A stretch of DNA of 64,000 bases from an uncultured Alphaproteobacteria bacterium (lineage in GTDB: Bacteria > Pseudomonadota > Alphaproteobacteria > RF32 > CAG-239). Location: the NCBI GenBank assembly GCA_944391485.1, contig CALXTQ010000006.1, forward strand, positions 124,001-188,000. Direction: 5' to 3'. Of the stretch, positions 39,349 to 43,127 are shown piece after piece; positions within the stretch are counted from its first letter, which is position 1; the number at the start of each line of letters is the position of its first letter. The notes beneath the pieces are model-generated. The model made no database searches. It worked only from the letters and a program-made list of their open reading frames with translations, and was not told the origin of the DNA. The position numbers and the translations under genes were made by a program.

Positions 39349-40185
39349 ATGAAGTTGAAAATTGCCTATCAGGGAGTTCCGGGAGCCTATTCGCATATTG
39401 CCTCCATGCGGGTTTATCCGGGGCAGGAGTATCTTCCCTGCGACACTTTCGAAAAAGCCATGGATCTGGTGCAGAGCGGCACAGCGGATCTGGCGATGAT
39501 TCCGGTCGAAAATTCCAACGCGGGAAGAGTATCTGACGTGCATTTTCTGTTGCCGCAGACCGGGCTCCATATTATAGGCGAATTTTTTCTGCGGGTTGAG
39601 CATCAGCTTCTGGGCCTCAGGGACGCCAGGCTGGAGGATATCAAAACCGCGTCGTCGCATCCGCAGGCTCTGGCTCAATGCTCGGAGTTTCTGAAACAGC
39701 ATTTTATTGTGCCAATGGCCCGAATTGATACGGCAAAATCGTGTCAGGACGTGGTTGACTTTCAGGATAAGAGCAAGGCGGCGGTTGCGTCAAAACTGGC
39801 CGGCGAGATTTATGGTCTGAAAGTGTTGGCGGCCAATATTGAAAATACGGCCAATAATACGACGCGTTTTCTGATCATGTCGAAGGAAACGGCTATTCCC
39901 AAATATGACGGAGGCGAATATATTACGTCCTTTATCTTTAAGGCGAAAAATATTCCGGCGGCGCTGTATAAGGCGTTAGGTGGTTTTGCGACCAACGGCA
40001 TTAATCTTACAAAGCTTGAAAGCTATCTGCTGAACGGTAAATTTGTTTCGGCGCAGTTTTATGTGGAAATCGAGGCGCATCCGGAACAGCAGTCTTTCCG
40101 GAACGCCATGGAAGAACTTCGGTTCTTTTCCGAATCGGTTCATGTTCTCGGCACCTATGCGGCGGACAGATACCGGTATATTTAG
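39349..40185 (+). CDS. pheA: Prephenate dehydratase
   Basis: Monofunctional prephenate dehydratase of 278 residues that makes phenylpyruvate for phenylalanine synthesis. The N-terminal catalytic domain begins KIAYQGVPGAYSHIAS and has the essential Thr-Arg-Phe in NTTRFLIMSKE. The C-terminal ACT domain (from about residue 190) carries GINLTKLESYLLNGKF, the ESRP-like site for feedback by phenylalanine. No chorismate mutase domain is fused. Confidence 0.95.
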   Translation: MKLKIAYQGVPGAYSHIASMRVYPGQEYLPCDTFEKAMDLVQSGTADLAMIPVENSNAGRVSDVHFLLPQTGLHIIGEFFLRVEHQLLGLRDARLEDIKTASSHPQALAQCSEFLKQHFIVPMARIDTAKSCQDVVDFQDKSKAAVASKLAGEIYGLKVLAANIENTANNTTRFLIMSKETAIPKYDGGEYITSFIFKAKNIPAALYKALGGFATNGINLTKLESYLLNGKFVSAQFYVEIEAHPEQQSFRNAMEELRFFSESVHVLGTYAADRYRYI

Positions 40186-40290: not shown

Positions 40291-42324
40291 CTAAAAGAGT
40301 TTGAGGACGGACTGGTTGGCCTGAGAAGCTAACGAGAGGGAGTTGACGGCAAGCATCTGTCTAGTCTGCAGAGCGAGCATGTTGGCGCTTTCCTGATTCA
40401 TGTCGGCCAGCGTCAGTTTGTCGGCGCCTTCTTCCAGAACATTGATCATTGCTTCGGTAAAGTTCTGCCGCGTTGAGAGGATGTTGTTATAGTTGCCGAA
40501 TAGTGATGCAAAACTGCGCAGGCGAGAAACGGCATTCTCCAGTTCGACGATGATTTTTTCTATTTCATCGGAATTGGTCAATCCGGACATACTTATTCCC
40601 AAAGCCTGAGATGACGCGTCCACGCCCGGAATGTTGACTGAGGATGATGAATCTTCGTTAAAACTGACTTTGAGACTGTCGCCGCGCAGCAGGTTGACAC
40701 CTTTGTAAGAACCGTCTCTGATAAGGGCATCATACTGGCGAATCAGTTCCTGGTAACGTTCTCCCTCAGCTGTTGCCGCTGTTTGACCGGTTTCTGTTTT
40801 TGTGGTCAGGTCAGCGGGGAGATCTTCAATATCCGAGGCCTGTCCGCCGGTGTTGCTGAAACCGTCCAGACCGTCGAACCCTTTGATATCCTGGGAACCT
40901 GATGCTGTGAGTTTGTTGTTTTGCTCCGACTGCCAGACGCCTTGCGTCGTTCCGTCGGGAGTTTTCCACGAAATCAGGCTTCCGGATGCGATGAAAACAG
41001 AGTTTTCAGCCTGCGGATTTTCTCTGAACATCAGCATAATGTCAGAAACGATATTCATTTTGACGTCAGGCGAAAAAATATTGATTGAGGCTGGAAATTC
41101 TTTGCCGTCAGATGAAGAGAGATAAACTGCCAGACCATAAGAGCTGCCGCCTTTGTTTTTTATGTTAATGTCGGCCTGATCATAAATATTTATCTGACCG
41201 CTGTTCCATGTATCCAAACCATAGCAGTTTTCGCCGTCGGTTTCGATGTTCAGGCGGGTGTTGCCGCGGATGTTGATCCGTGCTCCGACGCCGCGTCCGG
41301 CAGCCAGAGCTTCGCCTTTATTGCCGTTGAGACGCATTGTAATCTGGGAATCGGTAATGTCGGCAATGGCATTGTTCATGTAAATGCCAAGATAAGAAGA
41401 TGTTCCTGTTCCGTTCAGATCAAAATTGATGTGGCAGCCGCTTTCGATGTTGAGTGTTGACTGATCATAGAACTCAATGCCGCGTATAATGGTTCCCTGG
41501 CCGGTATGGTTAATGACCGTATTGCCGGCGATGGTTACGGCAGAATTTCCGGAAGCTATCAGCATACGATGGTTATACCCTTCGGCCTTAGTGTTGAAGA
41601 AGCCTTCAAGGCGTAAGTCTGCTCCGTTTATGGCGCCGAACATACCGACATCGCTTCCGGCGATGGTATCGGAAGTATCTAAAGAAGCGGTGATGTTTCT
41701 GATGGTGGCGCTGCCGCCGTCAAGACTTATAATTTTTCCACCGGGAGCTTGAGCAGTGTAGTTTATTTCAAGATCGGAAATTATAGAATTGTTTTTCAGA
41801 TTGATGGCGTTTTCAGCCGTGTCGAAATTAAAATTAAGTTTTGAGTTTTTATCGATGCCGATGTATCGGCTGCCAACCAGAGACTGTCCTGCGGACAGCT
41901 GCAGAGAATGATTGGTTATATTTATTTCGCCGTTAACGACAATTAAACCCTTTTTTCCGGAATTGACGGCAGCAAGTAATTCGTCTTCTGTTGCTACACT
42001 GGCAATGATGGGTTGGGCTGTTTCCAGGGCCTGGGAGGCAACGGCTTTAGCCTGTTGCAGAAAGCCGGAGGCAGCGTCGATGGTTTCGGCCACGGCTTTA
42101 AGGGTCTGTATTCCCTGAGACATGGCGTCCAGCAGGGCATTGAGGTCCGAGGCCCGGTCAGAGAGGGACTGCGCGGTATAATATGCGGAGGGATTGTCAA
42201 TGGCGGAATTGACCTTCAGACCGGTCGACAGCCGGTTGGAGGTTATGTCCTGAAGCTTTGAAGTCTGCTGAAGACTGAGAAGATTGGCGCGCATGGAGGC
42301 ATTGAGGGAGACGTTATGAAGCAT
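40291..42324 (-). CDS. fliC: Flagellin with large predicted beta-helix insertion
   Basis: Flagellin of 677 residues. Residues 1-104 are the conserved D0/D1 N-terminus (NRLSTGLKVNSAIDNPSAYYTAQSL). Residues about 519-677 are the conserved C-terminal half, with YKGVNLLRGDSL, LFGNYNNILSTRQNFTEAM and a DMNQESANMLALQTRQMLA end. Between them, about 410 residues form an Asn/Gly/Ile-rich series of short strands (LNIESGCHINFDLNG, INIRGNTRLNIETDG, INIYDQADINIKNKG) like a pectate-lyase-type right-handed beta-helix. This would project from the filament surface. It starts after GGAGG and has a candidate promoter at 42428-42455. No other flagellin is in the window. Confidence 0.9.
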   Translation of the reverse strand: MLHNVSLNASMRANLLSLQQTSKLQDITSNRLSTGLKVNSAIDNPSAYYTAQSLSDRASDLNALLDAMSQGIQTLKAVAETIDAASGFLQQAKAVASQALETAQPIIASVATEDELLAAVNSGKKGLIVVNGEINITNHSLQLSAGQSLVGSRYIGIDKNSKLNFNFDTAENAINLKNNSIISDLEINYTAQAPGGKIISLDGGSATIRNITASLDTSDTIAGSDVGMFGAINGADLRLEGFFNTKAEGYNHRMLIASGNSAVTIAGNTVINHTGQGTIIRGIEFYDQSTLNIESGCHINFDLNGTGTSSYLGIYMNNAIADITDSQITMRLNGNKGEALAAGRGVGARINIRGNTRLNIETDGENCYGLDTWNSGQINIYDQADINIKNKGGSSYGLAVYLSSSDGKEFPASINIFSPDVKMNIVSDIMLMFRENPQAENSVFIASGSLISWKTPDGTTQGVWQSEQNNKLTASGSQDIKGFDGLDGFSNTGGQASDIEDLPADLTTKTETGQTAATAEGERYQELIRQYDALIRDGSYKGVNLLRGDSLKVSFNEDSSSSVNIPGVDASSQALGISMSGLTNSDEIEKIIVELENAVSRLRSFASLFGNYNNILSTRQNFTEAMINVLEEGADKLTLADMNQESANMLALQTRQMLAVNSLSLASQANQSVLKLF

Positions 42325-42415
42325 AACAGCCTCCGTTCAGGGGGATAAAACGGCGTTTAGTCGGAATAAGGACCCTCGTTAAGACCATACTGGTAACAAT
42401 CCGCACATATGTTAA

Positions 42416-42455
42416 GTGTATACACAGGATATAATACGCGCGGTAATGTTAACAA
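42416..42455 (-). promoter_or_regulatory. Candidate flagellin promoter with overlapping palindrome
   Basis: On the minus strand TTGTTA (42455-42450) and TATATC (42433-42428) are 16 bases apart. The 10-base palindrome GTGTATACAC at 42416-42425 overlaps the expected start site and could be an operator. No sigma-54 or sigma-28 consensus is convincing. Confidence 0.35.
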
Positions 42456-42485
42456 TTCCTTACCCGGCACATTTTTTGGCAAAAA

Positions 42486-43127
42486 TCAGAAAAGCGAACA
42501 GATTTCGGCTTTAAGTTCATTCAGGCCGAGGTTTTTCTCGGAGCTGGTGGCCAGAACATCGACATAAGCAGCACCGTGTTTTTTTATGATTTCCTTTGTT
42601 TCGGCGATTACGCCGGCGAGTTGTTTGGCGCTTATCTTGTCGATTTTGGTTAAAACGATCTGATAGGTAACGGCAGCCTTATCCAGAAGTTTCATTGTTT
42701 CTTCATCGACTTTTTTTATGCCGTGGCGGGAATCGATGAGCAGAAAAACGCGTTTGAGGTTAACGCGGCCCTGAAGATAGGTAAAAATCAGTTTCTGCCA
42801 GTTCTTGACCAGAGCTTCCGGCGCCTGAGCAAAGCCGTATCCCGGCAGGTCCACCAGATGGAGCCTGTTATCAAGGTTAAAATAGTTCAGCTGCTGGGTG
42901 CGACCCGGGGTTCCGGAGGTTTTGGCCAGTTTGCGCTGGTTGAACAGGGCGTTTATCAGGCTTGATTTGCCGACGTTTGAGCGGCCGGCAAAAGCAACTT
43001 CTCCCATTTCGGTCAGGGGCAGCTGCTCTAATTTTGCAACGCTGAGAACAAAATTGCACGGGCGGTTGAACTGTTCTTCCGCCTGTTTCAGTTCTTCGGC
43101 ACCGAATTTTGCAGCTGCCTGTTCCAT
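42486..43127 (-). CDS. engB: Ribosome biogenesis GTP-binding protein EngB (YsxC)
   Basis: TrmE-Era-EngA-EngB family GTPase of 213 residues needed for 50S assembly. The P-loop [14 protein letters not shown], the G2 Thr region [13 protein letters not shown]3 DLPGYG and G4 LTKIDK are present. It starts immediately after the yidC stop codon, so the two are co-translated. Confidence 0.96.

Follow-up and report, generated by a model that had tools for sequence, protein, structure and literature searches.

A flagellin gene in the genome of an uncultured alphaproteobacterium raises the question of what occupies the long middle of the protein it encodes, and what that middle might do on a filament. 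The gene lies in the window, by which we mean the whole 64,000-nucleotide stretch of DNA that was analysed. A reading made from the sequence alone had placed a beta-helix between two standard flagellin ends and proposed that it gives every subunit a surface for binding or cleaving polysaccharide. Its coordinates, 40291-42324, proved right; the gene is an open frame on the minus strand (42324-40291) encoding a 677-residue flagellin (P0001). So did its D0/D1 assignment at both ends (residues 1-104 and about 160 C-terminal residues): Pfam matched Flagellin_N at residues 6-105 and Flagellin_C at residues 595-677 (33.7 and 27.9 bits, both above the curated cut-offs), with nothing significant between them, and the C-terminal D1/D0 spans residues 517-677. 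This C-terminal part scored 53-54 bits against the Caulobacter FljK/FljM filament structures, and the Caulobacter Flj filament flagellins are the solved proteins nearest to the core. The same genome (G000) encodes FlhA, the flagellar export gate, on contig C14, and an Rfam search near the gene gave no match. As part of the overall explanation that we favour, the gene probably encodes an assembly-competent flagellin with its outer domain at the D2/D3 position.

Table 1. Features of the flagellin locus and its flanks, in window coordinates.
Feature	Position	Strand	Basis
Flagellin with beta-helix outer domain, 677 aa	40291..42324	-	Open frame; Pfam Flagellin_N and Flagellin_C above cut-offs
N-terminal D0/D1, residues 1-104, homogenised 5' block	42013..42324	-	Pfam Flagellin_N; paralog DNA identity
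Predicted parallel beta-helix outer domain, about residues 105-494	40843..42012	-	AlphaFold2 insert model; Foldseek neighbours
C-terminal D1/D0, residues 517-677, partly homogenised 3' block	40291..40776 (last three bases are the stop codon)	-	Flagellin_C
Upstream block of about 141 bp (GGTAAGGAATTGTTAACATT...), common to paralogs	42325..42465	-	Upstream DNA alignment, six G000 copies
pheA (prephenate dehydratase), flank at synteny break	39349..40185	+	Pfam PDT
yihA/ysxC-type GTPase, opposite flank at synteny break	42486..43127	-	Pfam MMR_HSR1

The predicted structure bears out an insert of about 400 residues with stacked coils. Using an alignment of 37 long relatives as input, AlphaFold2 modelled the full-length protein as a beta-solenoid flanked on either side by D0/D1 helices (mean pLDDT 84.2; 10-residue blocks across 111-510 average mostly above 90). 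Because Foldseek matches of the whole model mostly reflected its flagellin core and flexible arrangement of domains, we modelled the insert alone (residues 103-515), obtaining a mean pLDDT of 93.6 and a pTM of 0.93, with about 36 short strands of at least three residues along the whole insert, stacked into coils. The predicted beta-helix stops near residue 494 and is followed by a linker to about 515, with the D1 helix resuming at 516, so that the boundaries first proposed (105-518) were correct to within about 20 residues. Against the PDB, the neighbours of the insert were alginate epimerase AlgE6, phage tailspikes, pectate lyase, polygalacturonase, rhamnogalacturonase and the Lactobacillus reuteri SRRP adhesin (5nxk), all of the right-handed parallel beta-helix class. 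With a best E of 8e-3 and TM scores of 0.2-0.43, these statistics are weak, and they support the fold class and allow no family to be named. The insert is thus predicted to be a parallel beta-helix of about 390 residues, right-handedness being the class of its nearest PDB folds.

We compared 35 related inserts for conserved residues. The conserved columns comprise an N-cap (ELLAAV..GK.GLIV..G.I....L..GQSLVG) and single Asn, Gly and Ile ladder positions, and the recurrence of this N-cap and Asn/Gly ladder indicates that the architecture is not due to chance. The sole charged residue invariant across all 35 is Glu115, in the N-cap helix; other conserved polar residues are scattered singly. An active polysaccharide lyase or hydrolase on the flagellum would be in keeping with a fold class common to pectate lyases, polygalacturonases and AlgE-type epimerases, yet none of the 35 inserts matched a pectate-lyase or polygalacturonase enzyme, lyase or hydrolase profile, and no conserved Asp/Arg/Lys/His set, catalytic acid/base or calcium-site residues were found across them. 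The window protein has no WIDH-type, RxP, DD or DxD motif, and its insert lacks the HExxH zinc site of flagellinolysin. The missing profile match and the missing conserved catalytic residues rule against the enzyme reading, which we regard as very improbable. Of the pectate-lyase relationship raised by the sequence-only reading, the fold class therefore stands, through Foldseek, and the enzyme family does not; nor did the cleaving surface, or the catalytic Asp/Arg and calcium-binding sites sought in its support, survive the comparison.

The one recurrent Pfam signal among the inserts was Pectate_lyase_5 (PF20585), annotated as a putative pectate lyase-like adhesive domain, which matched 9 of 35 (best 4.8e-5). 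The beta-helix fold is alike in that family, though the match is weak in those nine and absent from the window insert itself. Since conserved catalytic residues are lacking and the recurrent family is an adhesive one, binding or antigenic display appears more likely than cleavage; the polysaccharide-binding half of the sequence-only proposal is plausible. It is possible, if on balance doubtful, that the proteins are primarily adhesins, each beta-helix binding one particular glycan, be it mucin or a polysaccharide of plant or microbial origin, so that the repertoire would widen attachment and antigen variation would be a by-product. The adhesive-domain signal, the presence of the L. reuteri adhesin and polysaccharide-binding tailspikes among the structural neighbours, and two copies, in two genera, that also bear a lectin-like Lcl_C domain all fit this idea, but no ligand-site residues are conserved and the window insert is without a Pfam match.

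The window gene does not stand alone. In G000 (1.68 Mb in 21 contigs), search matches and retrieved stretches revealed seven long flagellins of this type, the others being on contigs C9, C16, C18, C4 and C13, plus C15, together with two 3' fragments at contig starts, a broken copy on C20 and N-terminal fragments. Judged by sequence, the window gene belongs to a dispersed set of about ten copies whose ends are near-identical and whose outer domains differ greatly. Two ordinary flagellins are also present, at the contig ends of C11 and C14, and these may alone build the filament. At the end of C7 (L013 3057-3479) lies a flagellin remnant of 141 codons; its N-terminal block runs directly into the last residues, the insert having been deleted between short similar stretches (...LLAAVNS / ...LAVNSLALAS). 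The insert of the C15 copy (L054, frame 3-2123) starts as a beta-helix and continues into a lectin-like Lcl_C domain at about residues 282-391; a copy in G021 (L085:1113-3443) has a similar architecture. A diversity-generating retroelement acting on the C15 copy was considered and rejected, as the candidate variable region is single-copy and has no template repeat. The sole reverse transcriptase, on C21 (G000:C21:395-1081, L053), lies beside a phage-type integrase, and its locus showed only short, insignificant DNA matches to the flagellin loci. Elsewhere on C21 (L053 4472-4999) a frame start resembles a signal-peptide-bearing repetitive surface protein. Judging from the domain matches, Lcl_C is another expanded lectin-like family in the reduced genomes G010, G014 and G012 of the same family, with 12-21 matches per genome.

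Comparison of the G000 paralogs at the DNA level revealed a sharp contrast between their ends and their middles. About 141 bp upstream of the start together with the first 300-450 bp are approximately 94-97% identical; the window 5' block has 94-97% identity to paralogs on C4, C18, C7 and C16, and the 5' ends of the C4 and C18 copies are 92.9% identical over 576 bp. The last 120-440 bp are mostly 84-94% identical, and the window 3' block is 92.6% identical to the paralog at the end of C9 over 445 bp, while the middles yielded no DNA alignment. For the N-terminal block, amino-acid identity is 0.93 within a genome versus 0.72 between genomes. Fourfold-degenerate sites, which are free of protein constraint, agree in this block at 0.61-0.65 within G000 and within G007 (a genome of the same family and another genus) versus 0.29 between the two, which indicates homogenisation within each genome. 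The inserts agree at 0.31-0.34 of fourfold sites both within and between genomes, i.e. they are synonymously saturated. The copies are also mosaic: the D1-C segment of the window gene has a fourfold-site agreement of 0.92 with the C9-end copy and of 0.18-0.50 with the other copies, and the C13 copy is without the homogenised 5' block (0.13-0.20). By these measures, the flanks show concerted evolution around a divergent centre, homogenised within each genome. What was found is thus what a gene-conversion repertoire would show, namely multiple dispersed copies, homogenised flanks and a divergent, variable centre. The homogenisation could be old, with no active switch.

The inserts themselves have a deeper history. 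The reciprocal best match of the window insert is L056 of G007, in the other genus (40%, E ~1e-90), and further reciprocal best pairs of inserts join genomes (L009/L059, L058/L082 and L069/L084), implying that these insert lineages either are older than the divergence of the genomes or have passed from one genome to another. This bears on whether the inserts form a variable shield, selected for difference, as in escape from antibodies or flagellum-dependent phages, and not for binding. Synonymous saturation of the inserts even within a genome whose flagellin ends are homogenised, and conservation limited to the N-cap and ladder residues, would both be expected of such a shield; against this, the lineages remain recognisable across genera, and their persistence suggests a retained function or structure. 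We hold the shield to be unlikely. Less likely again, and argued by analogy, is a mechanical sheath in which the beta-helices would stiffen the filament for swimming in viscous mucus. The insert does sit at the D1 tip, contacts between outer domains are reported to alter motility in viscous media (PMC8931119, PMC10256154), and a sheath role is reported for outer-domain dimers in other bacteria (PMC8931119); but the insert alignment contains no conserved outer surface patch, and since the inserts vary in both length and sequence, a regular sheath contact would be hard to maintain.

The surroundings of the window gene provide a further sign of recombination. In the relative L120, the genes after yihA are a methyltransferase, a TM2-like and a holA-like gene, and in no same-genus relative was a flagellin found next to yihA. 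In G000 the window flagellin comes next to yihA, with pheA beyond it, and the methyltransferase and holA-like gene adjoin the C9-end flagellin; yihA and its usual neighbours are therefore split, one flagellin copy lying next to yihA and another next to the neighbours. In the same-genus relatives examined, pheA has a polyprenyl-synthase-like or another gene next to it, never a flagellin or yihA. From this gene order, recombination between flagellin copies is the simplest cause of the breaks. An assembly artefact, in which the window gene is a chimera of wrongly joined flagellin repeats, has to be weighed here, since flagellin genes contain many of the contig ends and the window gene itself is at a synteny break. 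The contigs break, however, at exact 127-bp repeats (C12/C19 and C9s/C7s), whereas the longest exact match of the window copy to any other copy is 98 bp, which makes the contig path probably real. Moreover, the same insert lineage is present in an independent MAG (L055 at full length; L056 as a truncated 553-aa form), and a chimera would exchange just the near-identical 5' block. We judge misassembly unlikely, and a chimera of this kind decidedly improbable.

In the alignment of six G000 copies, the upstream block has a sharp 5' boundary, and its core motif stands at the same distance in the other five such copies (chance ~0.007 per site). A consensus search of the block found no sigma-54-type sites. 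By sequence comparison, the block probably serves each copy as a promoter and leader of its own. Sharing of this putative promoter is particular to G000, since the sequence preceding the start codon is not strongly conserved among the G007 copies. Each MLHNV-type copy with upstream sequence has its own leader, and co-expression would thus be possible without switching.

Such flagellins are patchily distributed. An insert search matched 12 of the 101 genomes of the family, in 5 of 16 genera. All the genomes compared for their repertoires are drafts or MAGs. At least 25 long beta-helix flagellins were counted in G007 (contigs CALXTG; alignment A1), a number that strain mixing could raise in this draft MAG (87% complete, about 220 contigs); a search for FlhA found none in this incomplete assembly. 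G021 has four long copies, and genera g2, g7, g8 and g12 have one to several long flagellins per genome. Within the genus of the window genome, by contrast, none of six relatives matched, and where their flagellins were read these proved to be ordinary, at about 340-410 aa; the expectation that close relatives might keep the insert thus failed within the genus and held for some other genera of the family. Among the g7 matches are some to free-standing proteins (about 323-335 aa), of which the two that were read lack flagellin ends. These two (L206 2184-3152 in G072 and L207 1072-2076 in G042; about 325 aa) are 26-28% identical to the insert and lie between ruvX-like and amidase-like genes.

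We consider it probable that these genes, each with a non-catalytic beta-helix, form a repertoire that recombines and whose flagellin outer domains are interchangeable. The architecture, fold class, copy number, homogenised ends and saturated inserts, cross-genus lineages, rearrangement points and lack of conserved catalytic residues were computed directly. Recombination or gene conversion would keep the D0/D1-coding ends (and, in G000, the leader) similar around beta-helix inserts that appear to be old, divergent lineages. A uniform core would allow any copy to co-polymerise into the same filament, and expressing or exchanging copies would then change the surface on thousands of subunits. The likely use would be to bind host or diet glycans, to vary an exposed antigen or phage receptor, or both. 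What we infer from this model is that the copies are expressed and enter the filament, that recombination continues to act as a switch, and what the ligand is. In its most active form, in some alphaproteobacterial lineages, about 10 to more than 25 dispersed genes would swap ends by gene conversion, and filaments would show changing mixtures of beta-helix binding domains. This would resemble the repertoires of surface antigens, here placed on a motility organelle whose subunits co-polymerise; we consider it possible but less likely than not. If true, the repertoire would offer a testable model for one filament that presents many binding or antigenic surfaces at once, and the inserts would supply flagellum display with naturally occurring outer-domain scaffolds.

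Domain insertions in the hypervariable region are already known from other flagellins, among them the flagellinolysins (Eckhard et al. 2017, PMC5595980). Flagellinolysins resemble the flagellins described here in having a flagellin core with a foreign domain in its surface-exposed middle and a patchy occurrence across taxa. They differ in carrying an M9-like metallopeptidase with a conserved HExxH, in place of a beta-helix without conserved catalytic residues that belongs to a multigene repertoire. Among the ten most frequent of the 61 inserted domains in that study there is no pectate-lyase or beta-helix domain. In the openly available papers that our literature search covered, no beta-helix flagellin or repertoire of this kind is described, nor was one found in work on flagellin gene conversion or on flagellins of gut Alphaproteobacteria. 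Caulobacter FljK, FljL, FljM and FljN are likewise alphaproteobacterial, build a filament from several flagellins and provide the nearest solved core, but at about 270 aa they are without outer domains. Recombination in the middle region of Salmonella and E. coli fliC (PMC7018530) similarly combines conserved ends, a highly variable middle and exchange at the ends; variation there is mostly between strains or two loci, whereas here the variants occur together in one genome. The largest flagellin set in a 2021 review is that of Magnetococcus, with 15 genes (PMC8306008), likewise a large number, compared with at least 25 long beta-helix flagellins in G007, where strain mixing is possible. As far as the literature searched extends, flagellins with inserted domains and flagellins with strain-variable middles were known, and what is new is a large family within one small genome that joins homogenised cores to divergent beta-helices.
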